Part shown: in pieces, positions 22,949 to 43,108 of the stretch | How positions within the stretch are numbered: the stretch's first letter is position 1 | Layout: the number at the start of each line of letters is the position of its first letter | Assembly: GCF_024172165.1 (NCBI RefSeq) | Contig: NZ_JAMZEB010000002.1 | Location: 9,336,501 to 9,400,500 of the forward strand | Length of the DNA: 64,000 nucleotides | From: Nonomuraea thailandensis | GTDB lineage: Bacteria; Actinomycetota; Actinomycetes; Streptosporangiales; Streptosporangiaceae | Direction: 5' to 3' | Translations under genes and position numbers: made by a program | The notes under the pieces: generated by a model | Told to the model about the DNA's origin: nothing | Database searches by the model: none | The model's input: only the letters and a program-made list of their open reading frames with translations

Positions 22949-23725
22949 TCAGGCGATCCGGACCGCGTAGCCCTCCAGGCCCGGCACGGCCGGGTAGCGC
23001 TCCAGCACGAGCGGGTCGTGCCCGGCCACGACCAGCTCGGGAGAGCCGGCCAGCGCCCGGACGCGGTCGAAGGCGTCGTACATGGCCGGCAGGTGGTCCA
23101 CGATCCCGTACGGGCGGTCGGCCTCGATGTTGTCGTAGAAGTGACCGGCGTCCGAGGCGACGACCGCGTCCCCGCGGGCGGTGCGCACGCGGACGACCTG
23201 CATGCCCGGCGTGTGGCCGCCGACGTGGTGCACGCTCAGGCCGGGCAGCAGCTCGTGGTCGCCGTCGAGCTGCCGCACGCGGCCGGTGAAGTTCTCCCGC
23301 ACCAGGTAGGCGATGTCGTCGGGGTCGGCCAGGTGTGGGTAGTCGCCGCGGTGGGCGTGCGGGCCTGTCCAGAACGCCAGCTCGGAGCGCTGGAGCACGA
23401 TCCGGGCCTCGGGGAAGTCGCGCAGGTGACCGGTGTGGTCGTAGTGCAGGTGGCTGAGCACGACGTGACCGACCCCGTCGGCCGCCACGCCCAGGGCGGC
23501 CAGGGTGTCCACGGGCGAGCGCAGGTAGTGGCGGTTGCCGCGGCGCCCGGCGGTCTCCTCGGTGAAGCCCGCGTCCACCAGCACCACGCCGTGCTCCCCG
23601 ATGGCCGCCCAGACGTAGTAGTCGATCGGGTAGGGGTCGAGGGCGCACGGGTCGTGGCCGTAGAAGTGCTCGCCGCGGACGGAGGCGTCGCGGTGCGCGT
23701 AGCGGAGGGCGTAGAGCTCATACAT
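22949..23725 (-). CDS. MBL-fold hydrolase, N-acyl homoserine lactonase family
   Basis: 258 aa. HLHYDH (HxHxDH) binds the two zincs; GGHTPG and SDAGHFYDN complete the site. The N-terminal pattern, with a DPYPIDYYVWAA strand before the metal motif, is that of the AHL-lactonase-like group, which opens lactone rings. It begins 8 bp inside the flavoprotein gene's end and is last in the five-gene catabolic operon. In that setting it more likely opens a lactone made from the imported acid than quenches signalling. The real substrate is unknown. Confidence 0.88.
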   Translation of the reverse strand: MYELYALRYAHRDASVRGEHFYGHDPCALDPYPIDYYVWAAIGEHGVVLVDAGFTEETAGRRGNRHYLRSPVDTLAALGVAADGVGHVVLSHLHYDHTGHLRDFPEARIVLQRSELAFWTGPHAHRGDYPHLADPDDIAYLVRENFTGRVRQLDGDHELLPGLSVHHVGGHTPGMQVVRVRTARGDAVVASDAGHFYDNIEADRPYGIVDHLPAMYDAFDRVRALAGSPELVVAGHDPLVLERYPAVPGLEGYAVRIA

Positions 23726-25202
23726 GGGACGCCCCGGCCGCGTGGGCGCCCGCGCGGCGGCCGAAGACGGTGCCGGAGGTGAGCCCCGAGCCGCCCGGGT
23801 AGTTGCCGGAGAACAGGCCGCCGACCAGCTCGCCCGCCGCGTACAGGCCGGAGATCGGCACGCCGCCCGCGTCGAGCACGCGGGCGTCGGTGTCCACCCG
23901 CACCCCGCCGAACGTGAACGTGATGCCGCAGGTCACCGCGTACCCGTAGTAGGGCGGGGCGTCGAGCGCGAGCGCCCAGTTCGACTTGGGCGGCTGGACG
24001 GCCGCCGCCCGGCCGTCCTTGACCGACGGGTCGAACGGCACGCCGTCGTCGATCGAGGCGTTGAAGCGCGCCACGGTCTCCTCCAGCCCTCCCGGGTCGA
24101 TGCCCAGCTCGGCGGCCAGCTCCGCCAGAGTGTCCGCCCGCGCGGCGGTGATCGGGTGGGAGTCGTACTCCTCGCGGCGCAGCAGCGGCCTGCTCTTGGC
24201 GTCGAAGAGCTGGAAGGCGACGCCGCCCGGCTGGCGCAGGATCTCCCTGCCGTACTTGGCGTAGGTGTAGTTGCGGTAGTCGGCGCCCTCGTCCACGAAG
24301 CGGCGGCCCTCGCGGTTGACCACGACGCCGACCGGATAGCTCTGGCGGGTGAGCTGGTTGGTCAGGGTGCGGTTGCCGCCGCTGTCGGGCGCGCCCGCGT
24401 CCCAGGCGGTGCTGTGGCAGGAGGCCCAGTCGCCGTACGGCTGCGCGCCCGCAGCCAGCGCGAGGTCGAGCACCTCGCCGGTGTTCAGGGGGTTGCCGCG
24501 GATCTTGGCCCGCCGCCATTCCGGGCCGAGGTGCCTGGCCCGCCGCTCCGGGTCGGCCTCGAAGCCGCCCGCCGCCAGCACGACCGCGGGCGCGGTGACC
24601 TCGTGCGCGGCTCCCGACGCGTCGCGGTACTCCACGCCCGTCACCCGCTGCCCGTCGCGCAGCAGCGAGGTGACCGCCGCGCCGTACCGGATCTCGACGC
24701 CCGACGCGACCGCCGCCCCGGTGTGCCCGGCGATCAGCCCCTTCCCGCCGCCGACCGTGCCGACGACCAGGCCGCCGAAGAAGCGCCAGCGCCCGTCCGA
24801 CTCGTACGCCTGCCGCTCGTACATCAGCCGCCACCGGATCCCCTTGCCGGCCAGCCAGCCGACCGCGCCGGCCGCGTCACCCACCAGCAGGCCGGTGAGC
24901 ACGGGGTCGCAGCGGCCGTCGGTGACCCGCTTCATGTCGGCCAGGAAGTCCTCCGCCGTGTAGGGCGGCACGTCCGTCGTGGCGTGCCTGGGGTCCTCCT
25001 CGATCAGCGGCCGCAGCTCGTCCAGCCCGGAGCAGGGGAAGCGGAAGGCGCCCGCCGTGTAGTAGGAGTTGCCGCCGGCCTCGCCGGCCGTGCCCTTCTC
25101 CAGGAGCAGCACGCGGGCGCCGCGCTCGCGGGCCGCGTGGGCGGCGGAGAAACCGGCGTTGCCGCCGCCGACCACGATCACGTCGTACGAGGTCATGCTC
25201 AT
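23718..25202 (-). CDS. FAD-dependent dehydrogenase, TcuA/fumarate reductase-like
   Basis: 494 aa from ATG 25202, which overlaps the previous stop (ATGA); ATG 25196 is equally placed for the GGAGAAGGA ribosome site. FAD motif VVGGGNAGFSAAHAARERGARVLLLEK, then PERRARHLGPEW, the capping region and C-terminal GLYAAGELVGGLFSGNYPGGSGL with TFGGVRVD. This pattern is closest to tricarballylate dehydrogenase TcuA and relatives, which oxidise di- or tricarboxylates with FAD. It is the likely entry oxidation of the pathway here. No partner TcuB (iron-sulfur/haem) gene is present, so the electron acceptor is open. Confidence 0.85.
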   Translation of the reverse strand: MSMTSYDVIVVGGGNAGFSAAHAARERGARVLLLEKGTAGEAGGNSYYTAGAFRFPCSGLDELRPLIEEDPRHATTDVPPYTAEDFLADMKRVTDGRCDPVLTGLLVGDAAGAVGWLAGKGIRWRLMYERQAYESDGRWRFFGGLVVGTVGGGKGLIAGHTGAAVASGVEIRYGAAVTSLLRDGQRVTGVEYRDASGAAHEVTAPAVVLAAGGFEADPERRARHLGPEWRRAKIRGNPLNTGEVLDLALAAGAQPYGDWASCHSTAWDAGAPDSGGNRTLTNQLTRQSYPVGVVVNREGRRFVDEGADYRNYTYAKYGREILRQPGGVAFQLFDAKSRPLLRREEYDSHPITAARADTLAELAAELGIDPGGLEETVARFNASIDDGVPFDPSVKDGRAAAVQPPKSNWALALDAPPYYGYAVTCGITFTFGGVRVDTDARVLDAGGVPISGLYAAGELVGGLFSGNYPGGSGLTSGTVFGRRAGAHAAGASHV

Positions 25203-26089
25203 TCCTTCTCCGAGATGGGGCGGCCGGTCCACTGCTCCCACAGGGTGGCGATCGAGGCGTAGTCCTGCCGGCCGAGCCCGCCGCCGACGGCGATCTCGTA
25301 CACGCTGTGGCAGGCCTGGATGGCGAAGAGCGGGATGCCGGCGTCCTGGGCCAGGGCCAGCGCGAGCGTGGAGTCCTTGCGGGCCGCGGAGGTCGGCATG
25401 CCGCCCTCGTAGTCGCCGGGCAGGACGCGCTCAAGGAAGCGGTGGGTGAGCGGGCGGGTGAGCCCGGCCTCCGGATCGGCCAGCAGCTCGGCGAGCCGCC
25501 GCTCGGACACGCCGGTGGCCGCCGCCATCGCGCCGGCCTCGGCGAGCACGACCATGACGGCGTGCGCCACGGCGTTGTTGATGACCTTGGCGGCCATGCC
25601 CGCGCCCAGCTCGCCGAGCACGAGCTGCCGCGGCGCGAGCGCGTCGAGCACCGGGCGGGCGCGGGCGACGTCCGCCTCGTCCCCGCCGATGAGCAGCGTG
25701 GACGTGCCCGCCGCCATCTGCGCCACGCCGGACAGGATTGCGGCGTCGAGCACGCGGACCCCGTGCGGCGCGCACAGCTCGCGCAGCCGGTGCATGTCGG
25801 CCGGGTTGACCGTGCTGGTCTCGACGATCAGCGACCCCGGGCGCATGCCGGGCGCGATCGCGGCGGCGGCCTGCGCCGAGACGGCCGGGGTGGGCAGCGA
25901 CAGCACGACCGTCTCCGCCTGCGCCAGGTCGGCCACTTCCGCGACCCCCGTCACGCCGTCCAGCTCGCCCGCGGCCCCGGTGCGGGCGGGGTCGAGGTCG
26001 TAGGCGAGCACTTGGCAGGTCCCGGAGAGCCGCCGCGCGACGGCGGACCCCATGTTGCCGAGGCCGCACAGCCCCACTGGTGATCTCAT
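25199..26089 (-). CDS. NAD(P)-dependent beta-hydroxyacid dehydrogenase family oxidoreductase
   Basis: 296 aa. Rossmann motif GLCGLGNMGSAVARRL at the start; ETSTVNPAD and the ILSGVAQMAAGTSTLLIGGD region match substrate binding in the 3-hydroxyisobutyrate/tartronate-semialdehyde reductase family; ELGAGMAAKVINNAVAHAVMVVLAEA carries the catalytic Lys in the GxxxxxKxxNN motif. It turns a hydroxy acid into the matching semialdehyde or the reverse, so it fits directly with the aldehyde dehydrogenase encoded 12 bp upstream. The exact substrate cannot be read off. Confidence 0.88.
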   Translation of the reverse strand: MRSPVGLCGLGNMGSAVARRLSGTCQVLAYDLDPARTGAAGELDGVTGVAEVADLAQAETVVLSLPTPAVSAQAAAAIAPGMRPGSLIVETSTVNPADMHRLRELCAPHGVRVLDAAILSGVAQMAAGTSTLLIGGDEADVARARPVLDALAPRQLVLGELGAGMAAKVINNAVAHAVMVVLAEAGAMAAATGVSERRLAELLADPEAGLTRPLTHRFLERVLPGDYEGGMPTSAARKDSTLALALAQDAGIPLFAIQACHSVYEIAVGGGLGRQDYASIATLWEQWTGRPISEKE

Positions 26090-26101: not shown

Positions 26102-27562
26102 TCAGGTCCGCATGGCGAACGGGTCGGCGGCCCGGCCGGACAGGTCGATCATGACGTTCTTGGTGCGCAGGTACTCCTCCATGGCCTCCTCGCCGCGCTC
26201 GCGGCCGTACCCGGACATCCGGGTGCCGCCGAACGGAGCCTGCGCCGCGCTCGCCCGGTACGTGTTGACCCAGACGGTGCCCGCGACCAGCCGCTTGGCG
26301 ACGCGGTGGGCGCGGGCCAGGCTCGTGGTCCAGATGCCGGAGGCCAGGCCGAAGTCGCTGTCGTTGGCGATCGCGACGGCCTCCTCCTCGTCGCCGAACG
26401 GGATGACGCTCAGCACCGGCCCGAAGACCTCCTCCCTGGCGATCGGCATGCCGTTGTGCACGTCGGCGAAGACGGTGGGGGGCACGAACAGCCCCTTGTC
26501 CGGCAGCTCCCGCTCGCCGGCGACCCGGCGCGCGCCGGCCTCGGCCCCGGCCGCGATCATGCGCTGGATGCGCTCGTGCTGCGGAGCGTTGGCGACCGGG
26601 CCCATCTGGGTGTCCGGCAGCAGCGGGTCGCCCAGCCGGATGGCGTCCGCGCGCCGCGCCAGCTCCTCCACGACCCGCTGGTAGACGGGCCGCTCGACGA
26701 GCAGGCGGCTGCCCGCGATGCAGGTCTGGCCGCCCGCGGCGAAGATCCCGGCCATCGCGCCCGTGATCGCCGCGTCGAGGTCGGCGTCGGCGAAGACGAG
26801 GTTGGGCGACTTGCCGCCGAGCTCCAGCGTGACGGGGACGAGCGTGCGGGCCGCCGTGGCGGCGATGGCCTGGCCGGTGGCGACGCTGCCGGTGAAGCTG
26901 ATGCGGCCCAGGCGCGGATCGCCGACCAGGCTCGTGCCCGCCTCGGCGCCACCGGTCACGATGTTGATCACGCCGGGCGGGAAACCGGCCCGCTCGACCA
27001 GCTCGGCCAGCTCCAGCGTGGTGGCGGAGGCGTGCTCCGACGGCTTGATCACCACGCAGTTGCCGGTGGCCAGCGCGGGGGCGAGCTTGTTGGCCAGGAG
27101 CTGCATCGGGGAGTTCCACGCCGTGACGAGCGCGGCCACGCCCACGGGCTCGCGCAGCGTGTAGTCCAGGGTGTCCGGGTTGTCCAGCGGGATCGTGCGG
27201 CCGTACAGCTTGTCCGCGTACCCGGCGAAGAACCGGTAGTTGCGCGCGGCGAACCTGGCCTGGCCGGCGGTCTCCTTGAGCAGCTTGCCGTTGTCGGTGC
27301 TCTCCAGCCGGCCCAGCTCGTCGGCGCGCTCCTCGATCAGGTCGGCCAGCCGGTGCATCAGCCGCGCCCGCGCCACCCCGGGCGTCGCCGCCCACGTGCT
27401 CTCGAACGCCTCGCTCGCGGCCGTGACCGCCGCGGCCACGTCGGCGGCGCTGGCGTCGGGCACCGTGGCGAACTCCGCCCCGGTGTACGGGTTGACCGCC
27501 GCGAGCCTGCGGTCGCCGCCGGCGTCCACCCGCTCGCCGCCGATCAGCATGCGATATCTCAT
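26102..27562 (-). CDS. Aldehyde dehydrogenase
   Basis: 486 aa. Full-length ALDH: WNSPMQLLANKLAPALATGN (NAD site), FTGSVATG, LELGGKSP (general base Glu), and the catalytic Cys281 in GGQTCIAGSR; EEVFGPVLSVIPF follows. ATG 27562 overlaps the hydrolase stop (ATGA). A much longer frame extends upstream to 30082 but is only an open frame antisense to the MHS transporter. Family position suggests a betaine/muconic-semialdehyde type enzyme oxidising a carboxylic semialdehyde. It works in the operon 22949-28878. Confidence 0.92.
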   Translation of the reverse strand: MRYRMLIGGERVDAGGDRRLAAVNPYTGAEFATVPDASAADVAAAVTAASEAFESTWAATPGVARARLMHRLADLIEERADELGRLESTDNGKLLKETAGQARFAARNYRFFAGYADKLYGRTIPLDNPDTLDYTLREPVGVAALVTAWNSPMQLLANKLAPALATGNCVVIKPSEHASATTLELAELVERAGFPPGVINIVTGGAEAGTSLVGDPRLGRISFTGSVATGQAIAATAARTLVPVTLELGGKSPNLVFADADLDAAITGAMAGIFAAGGQTCIAGSRLLVERPVYQRVVEELARRADAIRLGDPLLPDTQMGPVANAPQHERIQRMIAAGAEAGARRVAGERELPDKGLFVPPTVFADVHNGMPIAREEVFGPVLSVIPFGDEEEAVAIANDSDFGLASGIWTTSLARAHRVAKRLVAGTVWVNTYRASAAQAPFGGTRMSGYGRERGEEAMEEYLRTKNVMIDLSGRAADPFAMRT

Positions 27563-28878
27563 CCGGCCGTCCCTCTCGCCTTGCCGTCGATCTCGTCCAG
27601 CGCCCACATCAGGTGCCCGGCGAACTCCCCCGGGTTCTCGGCCATCGGGAAGTGGCCGAGCCGGGGCATCGTCCTGAAGAGCGCGCCGGGGATGCGCCCG
27701 GCCGTCCGCCGGGACATCTCCGGCGTGCACGAGTAGTCGTACTCGCCGGTCAGCATCACCACCGGGCAGCGCGCCGTGTCGATGCGGCCGACGCGGTCCC
27801 GCGCGTCCCAGTCGCCGCTGTAGAACAGGATGTCCCCGGAGAACGTGCCGAACCCGCCCTGGGAGTAGCCCCACCACACCTCGCGCCGGTGCTCGGGCGG
27901 GCTCTGCGGCGCCATCAGCCCTTCCACCCATTCCGGCACGAACAGCGCCTGGTTGACGCGGGGGTCGCGGGCCCAGGCGACCTGCCGGCCCGGCACGTGG
28001 TCGGCGGCCTCGCAGGCCACGACGCCGCCGAGCCGGCCCGGATGGCGCAGGGCCAGCTCCAGGCAGATCTCGCCGCCCATCGAGCAGCCGACCACGATCG
28101 GGTCGTCGAGCTCCAGGCCCTCGACGACGGCCATGATCGTGGCGACGTACCGTTCGGTGTCCAGCGCGTACGCGCCGGGCGGCTCGCTGGGCGGGCCGGA
28201 GGAGCGGCCGTGCCAGGGCAGGTCGAAGGCCACCATGCGGCAGCGCTCCGCCAGCCGATCGTCGTTCATGAGGTGGTGGAACTGGCGGGCGTCCGCGCCG
28301 GCGGTGTGCAGGAAGAGCACGTCGCGACCGGTGCCCGCGTGCTCGCAGAACAGCCGCACGGGCTCCCCGCCCACCTCGGCCCGCAGGTAACGCCCCTCGA
28401 TGCGATCCGGCCGCGCCGGACCCGCGACCACCGCGCCGCCCGGCTCCCCTGCCGCCTCGGGTGCCTGGTCCGCGACCACCGCGCCGCCCGGCTCCGCCGC
28501 CGCCTCGGGCGCCGGGCCCGCGAGGACCGCGCGGCCGATCTCCAGCACCCGCCGCACCAGGTGGGCGTGCTGGGCGAAGCACACCTCGTCCCCGGTGACG
28601 GCGGTCCCCGGAACGCGCATGAGCATCCCGAAGAGGTGATGGTGCGGCGGCCGGGGCTCGGCCGCGAAGAACAGCCGCCACGCCTCGGGCTCCGCGACCA
28701 CCTCGAAGCCGGTCCGCCGGGCGGCGCCGGTGAGCCTTCCGTCGCGGAAGGCGAAGGTCACGACGTCGTCGCCGGCCCTGATGCCGAAGCCGACCTCTCC
28801 GGGGCAGCCCAGCGCCGCCAGTGCGGCGTCGGCCGCGCAGGCCGCGTGCCAGTCGTCGGCCCGCTCCGCCAGCCTCAC
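27559..28878 (-). CDS. Alpha/beta hydrolase with N-terminal SCP2-like domain
   Basis: 439 aa from GTG 28878, chosen for the GAGGAG six bases upstream. The first ~130 residues look like a small SCP2/sterol-carrier-like domain. A linker with a 16-residue repeat (APEAAAEPGGAVVADQ, then APEAAGEPGGAVVAGP) joins it to the hydrolase: VLFLHTAG oxyanion region, nucleophile Ser in GCSMGG, Asp in TGEYDYS, His in LGHFPM. Enzymes of this class cleave C-C bonds (meta-cleavage type) or esters. It is first in the catabolic operon and its stop overlaps the aldehyde dehydrogenase start. Substrate unknown. Confidence 0.82.
   Translation of the reverse strand: MRLAERADDWHAACAADAALAALGCPGEVGFGIRAGDDVVTFAFRDGRLTGAARRTGFEVVAEPEAWRLFFAAEPRPPHHHLFGMLMRVPGTAVTGDEVCFAQHAHLVRRVLEIGRAVLAGPAPEAAAEPGGAVVADQAPEAAGEPGGAVVAGPARPDRIEGRYLRAEVGGEPVRLFCEHAGTGRDVLFLHTAGADARQFHHLMNDDRLAERCRMVAFDLPWHGRSSGPPSEPPGAYALDTERYVATIMAVVEGLELDDPIVVGCSMGGEICLELALRHPGRLGGVVACEAADHVPGRQVAWARDPRVNQALFVPEWVEGLMAPQSPPEHRREVWWGYSQGGFGTFSGDILFYSGDWDARDRVGRIDTARCPVVMLTGEYDYSCTPEMSRRTAGRIPGALFRTMPRLGHFPMAENPGEFAGHLMWALDEIDGKARGTAG
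28423..28518 (-). repeat. 48-bp in-frame tandem repeat in hydrolase linker
   Basis: Two copies of a 48-bp unit start at 28423 and 28471; both open with CGCGACCACCGCGCCGCC. They encode the two 16-residue Ala/Pro/Gly-rich linker repeats between the SCP2-like and hydrolase domains. Being a multiple of three, copy-number change would only alter linker length. Confidence 0.8.
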
Positions 28879-29053
28879 GGACACCTCCTCGTGCAATGTA
28901 TACCGTTGAATACGGAAATATCCATGTATCGGTGCCCCTGTCAACCATCACGGCCAACCATTGACAATCGCGGGATACCGTTGCATACACTCGCTCCTCA
29001 CACGCTCCGGCACCCCATCGTGCGACCGGGTGCAAGGCAGAGAGGCAGCACCT
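28879..29053. promoter_or_regulatory. Divergent promoters and two matching operators for the catabolic operon and MHS transporter
   Basis: Leftward promoter: TTGACA (complement of 28939-28944), 17-bp spacer, ATATTT (28916-28921). Rightward promoter: TTGACA at 28961-28966, 17-bp spacer, CATACA at 28984-28989. The 14-mer ATACCGTTGAATAC at 28900-28913 lies at the leftward start site, and ATACCGTTGCATAC at 28975-28988 covers the rightward spacer and -10. One base differs between them. This is the layout of one repressor shutting both directions. The motif's GTAT...ATAC ends suit a GntR-type dimer, but no regulator gene is adjacent. Confidence 0.75.
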
Positions 29054-30352
29054 GTGACCCCCCAGAACCAGCAGCCGATCAGGCAGGTCGTGCTCGCCAG
29101 CTTCATCGGCACCACCATCGAGTGGTACGACTTCTTCATCTACGGCACGGCCGCCGCGTTGATCTTCAACGAGCTCTTCTTCCCGACGTTCTCCGACGTC
29201 GCGGGCAAGCTCGCCGCCTTCGCCGTCTTCGGCGCCGGCTTCGTGGTCCGCCCGCTGGGCGGCATCGTCTTCGGCCACTTCGGCGACCGGCTCGGCCGCA
29301 AGTCGATGCTGGTCCTGAGCCTGTTCATCATGGGCGCGGCCACGTTCCTGATCGGGCTGCTGCCCACGTACGACTCGTTCGGCGTGCTCGCCCCCGTCCT
29401 GCTGGTCGTGCTGCGGCTGCTGCAGGGCTTCGCGGTCGGCGGCGAGTGGGGCGGAGCCGTGCTCATGGCGGTCGAGCACTCGCCCAAGGAGCGTCGCGGC
29501 TACCACGGCAGCTGGCCGCAGTCCGGCGCGCCCGCCGGGCTGGTGCTGGCCTCCGCCGCGTTCGCCCTGGTCTCGCTGCTGCCGAAGGAGCAGTTCATGA
29601 CGTGGGGCTGGCGGGTGCCGTTCCTGTGCAGCGTGGCGTTGCTGCTGGTCGGCCTGGTGATCCGGCTGCGGCTGGCGGAGACCCCCGACTTCGAGCGGGT
29701 CAAGCAGTCGGGGCGCCAGGTGCGGCTGCCGGTCATCGAGGCCATCCGGCGTCATCCGAAGAACCTGCTGCTGGCCTTCGGCGCCTGCATCGCGCCGTTC
29801 CTGCAGTTCTACCTGTTCGGCACGTACATCCTCACGTACGCGACCACCGAGCTGAAGATCGAGCGCGGCACGGTGCTGCTCATCGTCTCCATCGCCGCCG
29901 CGCTTGAGGTGATCACGATCCCGGCGTTCGCGGCGCTGTCCGACCGGATCGGCCGACGCAAGGTGTTCCTGGCCGGCACCGTCGCCTACGTCCTGTACGC
30001 CTACCCGTTCTTCCTGCTCATCGACTCGGGCTCGCCGCTGGTGCTGGCCGTCGCCACGATCATCGGCCTGTCGGTCATCCACCCCGCCATGTACGGGCCG
30101 CTCGCCGCGCTGTTCGCCGACATGTTCAGCGCCCGCGTCCGCTACAGCGGCGCCTCGCTCGGCTACCAGATCGGCGGCATGCTCGGCGGCGGCTTCGCGC
30201 CCGTGATCCTGACCTCGCTGCAGGCCGCGGCGGGCAGCGCCGTCCTCGGCATCCCGCCCTACATGATCGCGGCCGGGCTGATCACCATCGTCGCCACCTA
30301 CCTGGCCACCCGGGCCGCCACGGCGGAGGAGGCCCGCGCCGTCGAGGTCTGA
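29054..30352 (+). CDS. MHS-family MFS transporter for organic acids
   Basis: 432 aa from GTG 29054 with GAGG eight bases before it. Twelve membrane segments. The N-terminus SFIGTTIEWYDFFIYGTAAAL and GGIVFGHFGDRLGRKSMLVLSL (the RxGRK loop) are hallmarks of the metabolite:proton symporter branch (KgtP, ShiA, TcuC relatives); GGEWGGAVLMAVEHSP and ALSDRIGRRKVFL follow. It is divergent from the carboxylate-type catabolic operon and shares its operators, so it should import that pathway's substrate by proton symport. Confidence 0.9.
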   Translation: MTPQNQQPIRQVVLASFIGTTIEWYDFFIYGTAAALIFNELFFPTFSDVAGKLAAFAVFGAGFVVRPLGGIVFGHFGDRLGRKSMLVLSLFIMGAATFLIGLLPTYDSFGVLAPVLLVVLRLLQGFAVGGEWGGAVLMAVEHSPKERRGYHGSWPQSGAPAGLVLASAAFALVSLLPKEQFMTWGWRVPFLCSVALLLVGLVIRLRLAETPDFERVKQSGRQVRLPVIEAIRRHPKNLLLAFGACIAPFLQFYLFGTYILTYATTELKIERGTVLLIVSIAAALEVITIPAFAALSDRIGRRKVFLAGTVAYVLYAYPFFLLIDSGSPLVLAVATIIGLSVIHPAMYGPLAALFADMFSARVRYSGASLGYQIGGMLGGGFAPVILTSLQAAAGSAVLGIPPYMIAAGLITIVATYLATRAATAEEARAVEV

Positions 30353-30373
30353 GCGCCTGTTACAGTGGCCGTT

Positions 30374-30450
30374 GACGCGGGGTGCCCGGAAGGCCGGGCT
30401 GAGATCACACCCGTCGAACCTGATCTAGTTCGGACTAGCGAAGGGACGTC
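30374..30450 (+). promoter_or_regulatory. TPP riboswitch (THI element)
   Basis: The conserved TPP core is present: GGGTGCCC, GGCTGAGATCACACCC, then ACCTGATCTAG and GGACTAGCGAAGGGA. GACG at 30374-30377 pairs with CGTC at 30447-30450 to close P1. The GAAGGGA near the 3' end could double as the thiD ribosome site, so control at translation is likely. Confidence 0.95.
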
Positions 30451-30456
30451 ACGGCC

Positions 30457-31260
30457 ATGGCCGCTGTACCCAAGGTCCTGTCCATCGCGGGCACCGATCC
30501 CAGCGGCGGCGCCGGGATCCAGGCCGACCTGAAGACCTTCTCCGCCCTCGGCGCGTACGGCATGACCGTCGTCACCGCGCTGGTCGCGCAGACCACCACC
30601 GGCGTGACCGGCATCCACGAGGTGCCGGCCGAGTTCGTCGCCGAGCAGCTCGACACGCTGCTGACCGACGTGCCGGCCGACGCGGTGAAGATCGGCATGC
30701 TGGGCAACGCGGCGCTGATCAAGGCGGTGGCGGCGGCGCTCGACGCCTACCGGCCCGCCTACGTCGTGCTCGACCCCGTCATGGTGGCCAAGAGCGGCGA
30801 CCGGCTGCTGCCCTCCGACGCGGTGGCCGCGCTGCGCGAGACGCTGCTGCCCCGCGTGCACCTGATCACCCCCAACCTGCCGGAGGCGGCCGACCTGCTC
30901 GGCGAGCAGCCGGCCGGAAGCCTGGCCGAGATGCACGAGCAGGCGCAGCGGCTGCGGGCGCTGGGCGCGCGGCAGGTGCTGCTCAAGGGCGGCCACCTCG
31001 ACGGCGACACGTGCGTGGACGTGCTGGCCACGCCGGAGGGCACGATCGAGCTGGCCGCGCCCCGCGTGGACACGAAGAACACGCACGGCACCGGCTGCAC
31101 GCTGTCCTCGGCCATCGCGGCGCTGCGCCCGCGCCACGACGACTGGGCGGGCGCGGTGCGGGCGGCCAAGGCGTACCTCACCGAGGCGCTGCGCGCGGCC
31201 GACAGCCTGCACGTCGGTCACGGCCACGGTCCCGTCCACCACTTCCACGCCATCTGGTAG
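30457..31260 (+). CDS. thiD: Hydroxymethylpyrimidine/phosphomethylpyrimidine kinase
   Basis: 267 aa, normal length. Ribokinase-fold signatures: SIAGTDPSGGAGIQADLKTFSALGAYGM at the start, DPVMVAKSGDRLL in the middle, and NTHGTGCTLSSAIAA with the catalytic residue near the end. It phosphorylates HMP and HMP-P in thiamine synthesis and salvage. It sits directly behind a TPP riboswitch and 7 bp before tenA, so it is shut off when thiamine diphosphate is high. Confidence 0.97.
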   Translation: MAAVPKVLSIAGTDPSGGAGIQADLKTFSALGAYGMTVVTALVAQTTTGVTGIHEVPAEFVAEQLDTLLTDVPADAVKIGMLGNAALIKAVAAALDAYRPAYVVLDPVMVAKSGDRLLPSDAVAALRETLLPRVHLITPNLPEAADLLGEQPAGSLAEMHEQAQRLRALGARQVLLKGGHLDGDTCVDVLATPEGTIELAAPRVDTKNTHGTGCTLSSAIAALRPRHDDWAGAVRAAKAYLTEALRAADSLHVGHGHGPVHHFHAIW

Positions 31261-38413: not shown

Positions 38414-41281
38414 TTGCCTCTGGGACCGGCCCCCTCGGGCTCGCTCTCCGACGTGCTCGTCGGCCGCCGCTCCGAGCTGGCGCTGCTGCGCTCGGTCATC
38501 GGGTCACCGCCGTCGCTCGCCCTGGTCGAGGGCGAGGCGGGCATCGGCAAGAGCCGGCTGGTGGCGGAGCTGTTCGCCGCGCCCGACCTGGCCGGCACCC
38601 GGCGGCTCGTCGGCCAGTGCGAGCAGCTCCAGGAGCCGCTGCCCCTCTCACCGCTGCTCGACGCGTTCCGCTCGGCGGGGGCCGAGCTGGCCCGCTCGCG
38701 CCTGCCGCTCAACCCCGTGGCCGGGGCGCTGGCGCCGCTGCTGCCCGAGATCGCCGAGCACCTGCCCCCGCCCCTCCCGCCGCTGCCCGACCAGCGGGCG
38801 GAGCGGCACCGGGTGTTCCGCGCGGCGGTCGCGCTGCTCGACCACCTCGGCCCGCTGGTGCTCGTGCTGGAGGACGTGCACTGGGCCGACGCCGGCACCC
38901 ACGACTTCCTCGCCTTCCTGGCCGCCCACCGGCCGCGCGACGTGGCGGTGATCCTCACCGTACGCACCGAGGCGGGCCTGCTGCCCATCCGCGAGGCCTT
39001 CGCCAGGGCGCCGTCGGGCCCGGCCCGCACGATCAGCCTGGCCCCGCTGAGCCTGCCCGAGGTGGAGGAGCTGGCAGGCGGCGTGCTCGGGGTCGAGCTC
39101 CCCCGCACGTTCGCCGGCCCCCTCTACGAGAAGACGGGCGGCATCCCGTTCGTCGTGGAGGAGGTGCTGCGCACGCTGCTGGAGCGGCTGCCCGCCGGCG
39201 AGATCCCCGGCCGCCCCGACGTGCTGGCCGACCTGGCCGTCCCCACCGTGCTGCGGGACGTGGTGCTGCAGCGCCTGTCCTCCCTCGACGACCCCTCTCA
39301 GGAGATCCTGGGCGCCGCGGCCGTCATCGGCATGACCCCCGACGACCGCGTGCTGGCCGAGGTCAGCGACCGCAGCCCGCCGGAGGTGGCCAGGGCGCTG
39401 GCCAAGGCGCAGGCGGTGGGGCTGCTGCACGAGGAGGACGGCCGCTCCCGGTTCAGGCACGCGCTGGCGCGGCAGATCGTGTACGAGTCCGTCGCCGTGT
39501 CCGGGCGGCGGTGGCTGCACCTGAGGACCGCGCGGGCCCTGGAGTCCCGCGGCGGTCCCCGGCCGGTGGCCCGGCTGGCGCACCACTTCCTGCACGCGGG
39601 CCGCACCTCCGACTTCGTGGGCAACGCCGAGGCCGCCGCCGACACGGCGCTCTCCCACGGGGACGACGCCACGGCCGCCCGCTTCCTGCTGCGCGCGCTG
39701 GAGGTCGGCGAGCTGTCCCGCGACGTACGCGTACGGCTGGCCGTCAAGCTGGGCCGGGCGGCCGTGGACGGGCTCGCGCATGCGGAGGCCGTGCCGATAC
39801 TCGAACGCCTGCTGGCCACCGAGCCGCTGCCCGCCCCGCTGCGCGGCGAGCTGCGCTTCGCCCTCGGCCGCCTGCTGCGCCAGCACGGGCAGGCGCGAGC
39901 GGGATACCTGCAGATCGAGCACGCGATCGACGACCTCGGCGAGCGGCCCGCGCTCCTGGGCCGCGCGCTGGCCGTGCTGGCCGCGCCGGAGACCGTCGTG
40001 GACCGGCACGTCAGCGAGCACACCGCCCGCTGCGAGCAGGCGGAGCGGGCCGCGCTCCGCAGCGGCGACCCGGACGTGGCCATCGCGGTCCGCATCACGC
40101 GCGCGAGCCTGCTGCTGGAGCAGGGCGACCCGGAGAGCCGGCGGCTGATCGACGCGCTGCTGGCCGACGAGCGGCTGCGCGCCTCGCCCCGCGAGCACGC
40201 CCGCGCCTGCCTCAACTGGGCCCAGGGCGCCCTGCACGCCGGGCGGCTCGACCGGGCCGAGATCCTGCTCGCGGAGGGGCGGCGAGTGGCCGACGAGGCC
40301 GAGTACCTGCGGGTGGCGGAGGTCGTCTCGCTGGTGACGGCCGCCGTGGACCGGGCCGCCGGGCGGTGGGACGGGCTGGAGGAGCGGCTGCGCCGGCTGG
40401 GCGACACCTCCGCCACGTTCGCCGCGGCCTCCCTGGACTCGCGACTGCTGCGCGGGGCGCTGCTGGCCGCGACGGGCCCCGCCGAGCAGGCCGTCGAGGT
40501 CCTGCGCGAGGTGATCGCGATCGCCGGGCGGACGGGGGCGGTGTGGCCGCTCATCCCGGCCAGGACGACGCTGTCGCGGCTGCTGCTGTCGCTGGACGAC
40601 GCCGCCGGCGCCGCCGAGCACGCCACCGCCGCCCTGGACCTGGCGCGGGCCAAGGGGAACTGGGTGTGGGCGGCCGAGAGCGTGTCGTGCCTGGTGGACG
40701 CCCTGGACGCCCTGGGCGGGCGCGGCGGCGCGGAGGAGGTGGCGGAGCTGCGCGCAGGTCTCGGCAGGGCCGACGCGCCGCTCGCGCAGGCGGCGCTGCT
40801 GACCGCCGAGGCCGTGCTCGCGCGCGCGGACGACGCCGGGCGGGCCGACCGGCTCCTCGACGAGGCGCGGGTCCTGCTGCGCAAGGCCGGGCTGCGGTAC
40901 GAGGAGGCGCTGGCCGGGGAGCGGCTGGGGCGGTGGCGCTGCGAGCGCGGGTCCGGCGACGGCGGGGCGCTGCTGGAGGAGGCCCTGCGGGCGTACGGGG
41001 CGATGGGGGCGGACCGCGACCTCGCGCGGGTCTGCCGGGTGATGCGGCAGAACGGGGTGCCGATCCCGTACCCGTGGCGGGGCGGGCGGCCCTCGCACGG
41101 CGGGACGCTGTCGTCGCGGGAACGCGAGGTGGCGCTGCTGGCCGCGGCCGGGAAGACGAACCAGGAGATCGCCGACGCGCTGTTCCTGTCCAGGCGCACG
41201 GTGGAGAGCCACATCGCCAACGCGCTGCGCAAGCTGGGGCTGGCCTCGCGCAAGGAGCTGCGCACGTTCCCCGTGGAGTGA
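38414..41281 (+). CDS. LAL-type LuxR-family transcriptional regulator with AAA ATPase domain
   Basis: 955 aa. TTG 38414 is the start: AGGAGG lies seven bases upstream. Walker A VEGEAGIGKSRLVAEL and Walker B LVLVLEDVHWAD are in the first 170 residues; a long helical repeat region follows; the last ~60 residues are a LuxR HTH (LSSREREVALLAAAGKTNQEIADALFLSRRTVESHIANALRKLG). Large ATP-dependent regulators of this plan often sit next to the genes they control; here that would be the divergent subtilase. Confidence 0.93.
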   Translation: MPLGPAPSGSLSDVLVGRRSELALLRSVIGSPPSLALVEGEAGIGKSRLVAELFAAPDLAGTRRLVGQCEQLQEPLPLSPLLDAFRSAGAELARSRLPLNPVAGALAPLLPEIAEHLPPPLPPLPDQRAERHRVFRAAVALLDHLGPLVLVLEDVHWADAGTHDFLAFLAAHRPRDVAVILTVRTEAGLLPIREAFARAPSGPARTISLAPLSLPEVEELAGGVLGVELPRTFAGPLYEKTGGIPFVVEEVLRTLLERLPAGEIPGRPDVLADLAVPTVLRDVVLQRLSSLDDPSQEILGAAAVIGMTPDDRVLAEVSDRSPPEVARALAKAQAVGLLHEEDGRSRFRHALARQIVYESVAVSGRRWLHLRTARALESRGGPRPVARLAHHFLHAGRTSDFVGNAEAAADTALSHGDDATAARFLLRALEVGELSRDVRVRLAVKLGRAAVDGLAHAEAVPILERLLATEPLPAPLRGELRFALGRLLRQHGQARAGYLQIEHAIDDLGERPALLGRALAVLAAPETVVDRHVSEHTARCEQAERAALRSGDPDVAIAVRITRASLLLEQGDPESRRLIDALLADERLRASPREHARACLNWAQGALHAGRLDRAEILLAEGRRVADEAEYLRVAEVVSLVTAAVDRAAGRWDGLEERLRRLGDTSATFAAASLDSRLLRGALLAATGPAEQAVEVLREVIAIAGRTGAVWPLIPARTTLSRLLLSLDDAAGAAEHATAALDLARAKGNWVWAAESVSCLVDALDALGGRGGAEEVAELRAGLGRADAPLAQAALLTAEAVLARADDAGRADRLLDEARVLLRKAGLRYEEALAGERLGRWRCERGSGDGGALLEEALRAYGAMGADRDLARVCRVMRQNGVPIPYPWRGGRPSHGGTLSSREREVALLAAAGKTNQEIADALFLSRRTVESHIANALRKLGLASRKELRTFPVE

Positions 41282-41291
41282 TCTTCGCGGA

Positions 41292-41936
41292 CTAGCGCAC
41301 GAGCCGGCTCTCCCAGGCCCAGGCGACGACCTCGACCCGGTTGCGCATCCCGAGCTTGGTCATGACGGACGACACGTGGCCCTTCACCGTGCTGAGCGAG
41401 ATGCACAGCTCGGTGGCGATCTCCTGGTTGGTGCGGCCCCTGGCGACCGCCCGCACGACCTCGCTCTCGCGCTCCGACAGCGGCTGCCCGGGGGCGGGCC
41501 TGGGAGCGGCGGCCGTGACGTGGCGCAGCAGGCGCAGCGTGATCGACGGCGAGATCAGCGCGTCGCCCGCGTGCGCGGCCCTGACCGCCTCCACGAGCAG
41601 CTCGGGCCCGGCGTCCTTGAGCACGAAGCCGGCCGCGCCACCCCGCAGCGCGCCGTAGACGTACTCGTCGAGGTCGAACGTGGTGACCACGATCACCCGC
41701 AGCGGGTCGCGCGTGTCGGGTCCGGCCAGGGCGGCGGTGACCTCGATGCCGTCGAGCCTGGGCATCTGCACGTCCACGAGGCACACGTCGGGCCGCAGCC
41801 TGCGTGCCATCGCGACCGCCTCCGCGCCGTCACCGGCCTCGGCGATCACGCGGATGTCGGGCTGGTCCTCCAGGATGAGGCGCAGGCAACCGCGGATCAT
41901 GGGCTGGTCGTCGGCCAGCAGCACCGTGATGCTCAC
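41292..41936 (-). CDS. NarL-family response regulator
   Basis: 214 aa. Receiver domain with acidic pair D9/D10 and phospho-acceptor D55 in CLVDVQMPRLDG; LuxR-type HTH at about 148-200 (LSERESEVVRAVARGRTNQEIATELCISLSTVKGHVSSVMTKLG). ATG 41936 overlaps the kinase stop (ATGA), so it is the kinase's partner. It ends 10 bp from the LAL regulator, which runs toward it. Confidence 0.96.
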   Translation of the reverse strand: MSITVLLADDQPMIRGCLRLILEDQPDIRVIAEAGDGAEAVAMARRLRPDVCLVDVQMPRLDGIEVTAALAGPDTRDPLRVIVVTTFDLDEYVYGALRGGAAGFVLKDAGPELLVEAVRAAHAGDALISPSITLRLLRHVTAAAPRPAPGQPLSERESEVVRAVARGRTNQEIATELCISLSTVKGHVSSVMTKLGMRNRVEVVAWAWESRLVR

Positions 41937-43108
41937 CGCCGCCCCTGCCCGCCGGCCCCGGCCGGCGTCCCCCGGGAGGCGGCCGGCGTCCGGTGCGCAT
42001 CGCGTTCCGGCAGGGGCAGCGTGGCGTGCACGGTCCAGCCGCCCGCGGGGCGCGGGCCCGCCGACAGCGTGCCGCCGAGCGCCTCGACCCGCTCGCGCAT
42101 CCCGACCAGCCCGTAGCCGCCGCCCAGGCGGTCGCGGTGGGTCCGGTGGGACGGCGGGGCGTCGTCCGTCACCTCCACCACCAGCTCCTCAGTTGCCTGC
42201 GTGACGCTGACGGTGACCGCGCTCGCGCCGGGTGCGTGGCGGGAGACGTTGGTCAGGGACTCCTGGACCAGCCGGTAGACGGTGCCCGCCACCTCCGACG
42301 GCCACGCCGGCTCCCCGTCGGGCAGCCGCAGCGCCACGGGAGGCCCGTCGAAGTGCGCGACCAGCTCGCCGAGCCGCTCCGCCGGCCCGAAGTCCGCGGG
42401 CCCGCCGGGCTCGCGCAGCAGGCCGACGACGCGCCGGGTCGCGGCCAGCGCGTCGGATCCGGCCGCCTCGATGTCGGCGAGCGAGCCGGCCACCCGGCCG
42501 GGGTCCTTGCGGGCGACGAGCTGCGCGGCCTGAGCCTGGAGGACGACGCACGTGACGTGGTGGGCGACGACGTCGTGCAGCTCCCTGGCCAGCCTCAGCC
42601 GTTCGGCGTGGCGTACGCGCTCGGCGGCGGCGGACCGGCGGATCGCCAGCCACCGCGGCCCCAGACCGCCCGCGAGGGCGGCGAGCCAGGCCCCGAGGTT
42701 CAGCGCGAGGACGGCGGTGTGCGTGGACCCGGAGAGCTGGCTGCCGAGGGCGACCGCGAGCCCGCCCGCGCCGACGCCGGCGGCCTGCGGCGCCGGCAGC
42801 GTCCTGAGCGCGGAGCCGACCAGCACGGACAGCCCGAGAGCCAGTCCGGGCCCCGGCTCGGCGGGCAGGTCGAAGAGCCGCGCGAGCAGGATGGCCAGCG
42901 CCGCGACCGCCATGCCCGCCACGGCCGTCCACAGCCGGGCGCGGCGGCGCAGGAGGGCGAGCACGCCCACCGTCACGCCCGCCACGCAGCCGGGCACCCA
43001 GTAGCCGCCGCCCCAGCTGTCCACGAGCCGGTGGGCCCAGTCGGCGAGCACCACCGCGAACGCGACGCCGAGCCCGGCCGCCTCCCACCGCTCCCGCATG
43101 CCTCCCAC
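41933..43108 (-). CDS. NarL-type (HisKA_3) sensor histidine kinase
   Basis: 391 aa counted from GTG 43108; ATG 43099 is an alternative, and neither has an ideal ribosome site. Five or six membrane segments fill residues 10-155 with almost no outer loop, so it may sense the membrane itself. Phospho-acceptor His178 in LARELHDVVAHHVTCVV; HATPase region VYRLVQESLTNVSRHAPGA and GGYGLVGMRERV. Translationally coupled to the response regulator. This is the cell-envelope-type two-component layout common in actinomycetes. Confidence 0.94.
   Translation of the reverse strand: MGGMRERWEAAGLGVAFAVVLADWAHRLVDSWGGGYWVPGCVAGVTVGVLALLRRRARLWTAVAGMAVAALAILLARLFDLPAEPGPGLALGLSVLVGSALRTLPAPQAAGVGAGGLAVALGSQLSGSTHTAVLALNLGAWLAALAGGLGPRWLAIRRSAAAERVRHAERLRLARELHDVVAHHVTCVVLQAQAAQLVARKDPGRVAGSLADIEAAGSDALAATRRVVGLLREPGGPADFGPAERLGELVAHFDGPPVALRLPDGEPAWPSEVAGTVYRLVQESLTNVSRHAPGASAVTVSVTQATEELVVEVTDDAPPSHRTHRDRLGGGYGLVGMRERVEALGGTLSAGPRPAGGWTVHATLPLPERDAHRTPAASRGTPAGAGGQGRR

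Follow-up and report, generated by a model that had tools for sequence, protein, structure and literature searches.

Predicted operators of a distant FCD-type GntR repressor at the divergent promoters of an organic-acid catabolic cluster in Nonomuraea thailandensis

Two short, nearly identical sites in a divergent promoter region of Nonomuraea thailandensis are, with high probability, operators of one trans-acting, self-regulated FCD-type GntR repressor of an organic-acid catabolic cluster, with the regulator gene located ~2.5 Mb away. This reading is built from sequence, that is, from the sites themselves, the ortholog of the regulator, the site at the regulator gene, the conservation across genera and the predicted functional residues. 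The stretch of DNA that was analysed, called the window here, is 64,000 nucleotides long, and the genome to which it belongs is referred to as G000.

The original prediction had described two near-identical 14-bp elements 75 bp apart, and both were found on the + strand of the intergenic region, copy 1 (ATACCGTTGAATAC) at 28900-28913 and copy 2 (ATACCGTTGCATAC) at 28975-28988, with the 75-bp spacing kept in 3/3 Nonomuraea genomes (G000, G018 and G028). On one side of them the leftward gene begins with a GTG at 28878, preceded by AGGAGGTG, and on the other the rightward gene begins with a GTG at 29054, both start codons having been picked by eye. Perfect TTGACA -35 boxes for both directions, likewise predicted, are present at 28944-28939 and 28961-28966. 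The leftward box is part of a promoter at 28917-28944 (- strand; 16-bp spacer, GATATT at 28922-28917, 10/12 consensus positions), the one promoter found by the scan (shuffles mean 0.0), so that the start point expected for the leftward direction falls within site 1. On the rightward side (+ strand) the -35 box is followed by no consensus -10, and the scan of this side recognised no promoter and no -10; site 2 starts six bases past the -35 box and reaches into the -10 zone. Both positions are those of the original prediction.

In other genomes the arms are kept and the centre differs, for which reason the 14-bp direct repeat gave way to a 16-bp double hexamer as the unit. Predicted operator 1 (GTATACCGTTGAATAC) accordingly spans 28898-28913, where leftward transcription is expected to start, and predicted operator 2 (GGATACCGTTGCATAC) spans 28973-28988, lying over the rightward -35/-10 interval, with a single position off the palindrome. 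Each has no strand assigned, consists of a pair of GYATRC-type hexamers whose starts are 10 bp apart, and is invariant in the three genomes.

We considered how rare these elements are. Across the whole 13.77-Mb genome the 14-mer occurs exactly only at the two window copies, with no place at one mismatch and 13 at two mismatches, as compared to 6 for the reversed-pattern control at up to two mismatches. The shared pattern GYATNCAACGGTATNC at up to one mismatch was found at exactly 3 places in G000, two at the divergent promoter and one at a gntR gene (reversed control 0), which is at odds with the random genome-wide scatter that would have spoken against the original prediction. A looser search of the window is uninformative: at up to three mismatches it returned the same 2 copies and nothing further, where shuffles gave a mean of 1.03, and since this is chance level it proves nothing at that looseness. 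Close pairs of similar 14-mers are common as well (230 overlapping pairs within 100 bp at up to one mismatch in the window, against 2-17 in random windows). When such pairs were restricted to at most 7 G/C letters, a single further repeat (in three overlapping frames) remained in the window beside the present pair, and 0/10 random windows, generated with a first-order model, held any. The chance-level count at three mismatches is what would be expected if the sites were a chance pair or a leftover of kinship without function; this reading is scarcely credible given that operator columns are unchanged where their surroundings vary, and that the sites recur at the regulator gene and, with a different centre, in other genera, as described below.

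The leftward genes, all on the - strand, begin with an alpha/beta hydrolase (27559-28878; start picked by eye), the N-terminal ~150 aa of which have no Pfam match, followed by an aldehyde dehydrogenase (26102-27559; PF00171, E 3e-170), a dehydrogenase of the beta-hydroxyacid (3-hydroxyisobutyrate-type) group (25199-26089; under the curated cut-offs), an FAD-dependent dehydrogenase of the TcuA (tricarballylate dehydrogenase) family (23718-25202; start by eye) and a lactonase-like metallo-beta-lactamase-fold hydrolase (22949-23725; under the curated lactonase cut-offs). The TcuA assignment comes from NF006130 (546.7 bits, cut-off 369); on TIGR02485, also named TcuA, the protein scores 259.5, below the cut-off of 372.55. 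The rightward gene (29054-30352, +) encodes an MHS-type metabolite:H+ symporter, with 441.0 bits on TIGR00883, slightly below the cut-off of 443.45, and 248.9 on the TcuC family NF011656, for which the cut-off is 445. TcuB (TIGR02484) had 0 matches in G000, a result with a weak control, since the 14 control genomes gave one match, below cut-off. Because there is no TcuB family match and the symporter falls below the TcuC cut-off, we do not claim tricarballylate as the fixed substrate. The tcuRABC system of Salmonella also combines a TcuA-family dehydrogenase with a proton symporter of the TcuC superfamily. It differs from the present system, which has no TcuB match, a GntR regulator and additional hydrolase, aldehyde dehydrogenase, hydroxyacid dehydrogenase and lactonase-like genes; TcuR of Salmonella is of the LysR type. 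The role of tcuABC there is tricarballylate utilisation (PMC10468695). ThiD and TenA had been candidate targets of operator 2 and were dropped: a TPP riboswitch (30368-30463, +; 67.9 bits, cut-off 54.3) directly precedes thiD-tenA, and both genes are therefore left out of the cluster and set apart from control of the symporter.

The hydrolase itself gave a structural model with a mean pLDDT of 81.5. Its ~150-aa N-terminal part (28430-28878, -) resembles, by eye, a separate ORF in Streptomyces sp. CT34, where the hydrolase is a gene of its own located after that ORF (L018 9504-10846). In genome G302 the hydrolase frame (L080 16476-16787) seems, by eye, to be short of a large inner part, with 103 aa left, and the rest of the cluster and the sites are kept.

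The scan of 10 window proteins revealed no regulator. With the hydrolase as the query, 10 loci were recovered in named genomes (L009-L018), and in six of these relatives (L010, L012-L016) a GntR gene lies at the cluster end; the FCD domain was tested for that of L013. Against G000, the L013 protein had one clear ortholog at 70% identity, with the runner-up at 37%, and all 41 matches to the GntR protein in G000 lie outside the window. This FCD-GntR ortholog is encoded at G000:C2:6840772-6841398, ~2.5 Mb from the window sites, and is preceded by GCATACAACGGTATGC, so that both expectations of the original prediction, a single regulator encoded away from the cluster and a GntR-type gene with the motif upstream, were borne out. 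The upstream site is one of the 13 two-mismatch places and starts 42 bp before the matched gntR stretch; it had been listed before the gene was known, and by simple arithmetic the chance that any of 13 sites in 13.77 Mb falls in the 100 bp upstream of a given gene is ~1 in ten thousand. The gntR gene directly follows tctC, tctB and tctA (TctA and TctB identified by Pfam, TctC by eye). Divergent from tctCBA is a second TcuA-family gene, tcuA2 (542.8 bits, cut-off 369; 61% identical to that of the window), and before it, at G000:C2:6844532-6844557, there are three hexamers 10 bp apart that make up two one-mismatch sites; this region is a probable further target of the regulator. Upstream of the conserved N-terminus of the G000 regulator (G000:C2:6841398; L031 10370-10460, -) we saw no in-frame ATG, GTG or TTG, and the likely start is a CTG after AGGAGG, as it is in G018, G028, G037 and G045 (all by eye).

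Within the genus, represented by 54 genomes including G000, the hydrolase is found in three (G000, G018, G028), all of which have the ortholog. GntR matches at E 1e-50 or better are present in 6/54, five at 90-100% identity and the one in G013 at 48%; G037 and G045 carry the ortholog, tctCBA and tcuA2, with the hydrolase absent. At up to one mismatch GYATNCAACGGTATNC occurs at 3 places each in G000 and G018, at 4 in G028 and at 1 each in G037 and G045 (reversed control 0 in four genomes and 1 in G028). G000, G018 and G028 share one layout, in which the divergent promoter carries a pair of places 75 bp apart and a third place precedes gntR, the fourth place in G028 being a one-mismatch place elsewhere. 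The single place in G037 is that at gntR, and the single place in G045 is a one-mismatch place elsewhere: that pattern misses the genome's own gntR site, GCATACATCTGTATGC, in which the arms are as elsewhere and the centre is different. In G018 no tct or tcuA2 gene was seen in 10 kb around gntR, and gntR and its site are retained. In the three-genome alignment the operators have 0/32 variable columns, as opposed to 21/69 among the comparison columns, which run from site 2 to the ribosome-binding site of the leftward gene with operators excluded and gaps counted (Fisher p 1.3e-4). As the hydrolase is present in only 3/54 genomes, the conservation of the window's two operators is that of a small sample of three related genomes. 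The symporter leader (window 28989-29053, +) is also well conserved, with 4/70 columns variable.

For a comparison across genera we used the palindrome GYATNC-N4-GNATRC, a pattern drawn up once the gntR sites of the genus and the hydrolase upstream stretches of L009-L018 had been viewed, and checked it at gntR genes. A perfect palindrome was present 18-63 bp upstream in 13/13 distinct orthologs at 60% identity or higher (G000, G018, G028, G037, G045, L010, which is the same as G343, L012, L013, L014, L015, L016, G413 and G302), as counted from the codon aligned to the first codon of the G000 protein, P0004. Eight of these gntR sites (L010, L012-L016, G413, G302) were unseen when the pattern was written; they are not fully independent cases, because three come from sister Saccharopolyspora species. 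Six matches at 51-52% identity, all of one genus, had no perfect site upstream and had one 55-57 bp beyond the matched stretch, ahead of the following gene. GntR genes below 50% identity were dropped as extra support, as a perfect site within 200 bp was present in 0/4 (L047, L076, L077, L078). L047 shows a one-mismatch site on its downstream side (29 bp of its upstream side are on the contig), L078 shows one upstream, and for the other two the 200 bp on each side contain no site. At the cluster promoters themselves, 8/10 hydrolase loci (L009-L016) have a site at up to one mismatch, which in L014-L016 precedes the aldehyde dehydrogenase and transporter genes. L011, with a one-mismatch site, has no gntR in the 21 kb examined; there is no site at the hydrolase loci of L017 (a Rokubacteria bin) and L018 (Streptomyces), and the different GntR of the latter (35%) has no perfect site. 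A GntR match at E 1e-50 or better was found in 12/394 sampled genomes of the class, including G000, and the regulator is therefore sparse. The loose palindrome was dropped as a genome-wide target finder, since its 11 places in G000 equal the 11 of the control; position and conservation therefore carry the case, and the pattern cannot list further targets.

These comparisons bear on which protein uses the sites. A different FCD-GntR paralog of similar specificity, or two regulators sharing the sites, would be suggested by one gene in particular, the 37% paralog L020 (G000:C2:10585062-10585631), which is preceded, 76 bp before its start, by a one-mismatch site, GTACACTCCTGTATAC, and may overlap with the ortholog in specificity. 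We regard this alternative as improbable: GTACACTCCTGTATAC does not have the AACG centre of the window's sites, the cluster-linked gene in relatives is the ortholog and not the paralog, and every hydrolase-bearing genome of the genus has the ortholog. Among the own-genome paralogs (29-39% identity) 0/11 have a perfect site within 200 bp and L020 is the 1/11 with a one-mismatch site. A maximum-likelihood tree built from 35 GntR proteins places the unlinked Nonomuraea genes within the cluster-linked clade (99/96, 100/98, 98/90), with 99/96 for a ten-row clade and 98/90 for its join with Saccharopolyspora; 10/11 own paralogs fall away from the ortholog clade, and the eleventh, L020, has a very long branch and is placed, without certainty, in a neighbouring group. 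A regulator of another family could also be proposed, such as the LuxR-type or two-component proteins 9-14 kb to the right, given that 38414-41281, 41292-41936 and 41933-43108 are (by eye) the nearest regulator-like frames on that side. Such a role is very unlikely, as these frames are linked to the cluster in none of the named relatives examined except the close relative L009, and it would leave the recurrence of sites at gntR genes unexplained.

The favoured reading, in which the unlinked FCD-GntR protein acts at the sites, is accompanied by a defined operator structure. The eight distinct gntR sites have GCATAC-N4-GTAT[GA]C in common, with 11/12 arm positions kept and all four central bases variable. 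As GYATRC is self-complementary, each site amounts to two hexamers with starts 10 bp apart. Counting hexamers that match at least 5/6 letters, there are three in L010, four each in L012, L013, L081 and L082 and five in register in L079, and the window has two arrays of two. Over 17 promoter regions, which were picked for having sites and some of which are from sister species, we counted 38 hexamer pairs at 10 bp (500 shuffles: mean 0.61, maximum 4) and 18 pairs at 20 bp. The 16-bp pattern itself requires one pair at 10 bp, so that the 10-bp count is partly built in; this requirement does not account for the third, fourth and fifth hexamers or for the 18 pairs at 20 bp. What is less usual in this regulon is that the operator forms an array, with 2-5 hexamers placed every 10 bp.

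P0004 is a protein of 209 aa with matches to PF00392 (E 5.3e-19) and PF07729 (E 1.4e-27), which assigns it to the FCD (FadR) subfamily, and its model (pLDDT 88.3) has GntR-family PDB entries as fold matches. N121, H125, H169, H191 and R36 are invariant in 15/15 aligned relatives, and the first four correspond to the Asp/Asn plus three His pocket of the subfamily, a predicted Asn-His-His-His metal site. In a comparison with the NCBIfam GntR equivalogs (PhnR, CsiR, NanR, LldR, PdhR, GlcC and others) 16 families match and none is over its cut-off, the best being phnR_burk (111.1 bits, cut-off 271.5). The top solved relatives by E-value are PmiR and Atu1419/VanR. PmiR of Pseudomonas aeruginosa (PDB 7xp0, 7xp1), first by both sequence (2.6e-22) and fold, differs in its targets and in having Asp as the aligned acid ligand in place of Asn121; it senses 2-methylisocitrate, going by the title of a cited study.

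Atu1419 (VanR) of Agrobacterium fabrum (PDB 6z74, 6za3) is likewise an FCD-GntR protein, with an identical SRTPVREAL stretch; the Arg of SRT in P0004 aligns with its Arg45, and N121, H125, H169 and H191 align with its Asn137, His141, His192 and His214. The sites described here have the GTATAC-centred palindromic form of operators of Atu1419-like repressors, with GYATRC as the consensus and not strict GTATAC. According to the published account (PMC7797058), an Atu1419 dimer binds ATGTATACAT, with Arg45 reading a guanine of the palindrome, and Asn137 and the three histidines hold a zinc near a bound citrate that is a fortuitous ligand. The palindromes overlap a -10 or sit between -10 and -35, Atu1419 represses, and its tetramers loop two palindromes 190 bp apart (PMC7797058). 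Atu1419 differs in serving hydroxycinnamate degradation, in having its gene beside its targets and in using isolated 10-bp palindromes, as opposed to hexamers every 10 bp. NanR of Escherichia coli is likewise a GntR repressor on tandem hexamers, (GGTATA)3, and belongs to sialic acid metabolism. Its hexamers are closer together than those here and are not self-complementary. Three NanR dimers bind the three GGTATA repeats cooperatively (PMC8012715). This cooperativity needs a 32-residue N-terminal extension. P0004, unlike NanR, begins at the DNA-binding domain.

For DNA binding, repression, dimer count, effector and start points we infer the following. The two hexamers of each operator (self-complementary GYATRC, similar to GTATAC) are spaced by about one helical turn, and each operator would most likely take two dimers side by side, by analogy with the one Atu1419 dimer per GTATAC-centred palindrome. 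When the effector is absent, the protein would sit on the leftward start point as well as on the rightward -35/-10 interval, keeping the catabolic operon and the transporter off, and through the site before gntR it would limit its own synthesis. A di- or tricarboxylic acid derived from the substrate may bind at the Asn-His-His-His metal site and cause release. One dimer per hexamer and a carboxylate effector are supported, rather than shown, by what is known of Atu1419 and NanR. The same regulator might instead be mainly an activator, or a dual regulator, in keeping with the lack of a recognised rightward -10, as in promoters that need help. We think this unlikely, since site 1 is at the expected start of a near-consensus promoter and site 2 is inside a -35/-10 interval. 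Sites at such positions usually block polymerase, and Atu1419, with sites at like positions, represses (PMC7797058). With repression as the preferred reading, we tentatively suggest, with some doubt, that the modular array sets repression strength by copy number through side-by-side dimers, and that one unlinked Nonomuraea regulator ties together the tctCBA/tcuA2 and hydrolase/TcuA routes, possibly bridging by a loop the operators 75 bp (~seven turns) apart; the retention of this spacing in all three genomes would be compatible with such looping.

In the open-access literature searched we found no published account of this regulon, no paper joining GTATAC, GntR, operator and FCD, and no account of a PmiR operator. 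An orphan promoter motif has become a complete, testable pair of predicted regulator and operator, and the target cluster was assigned to a GntR protein by genome comparison and not by neighbourhood. This assignment points to carboxylic acids as possible inducers of an uncharacterised actinomycete catabolic cluster, and the periodic hexamer arrays would provide a natural series for the study of how GntR dimers cooperate along DNA.
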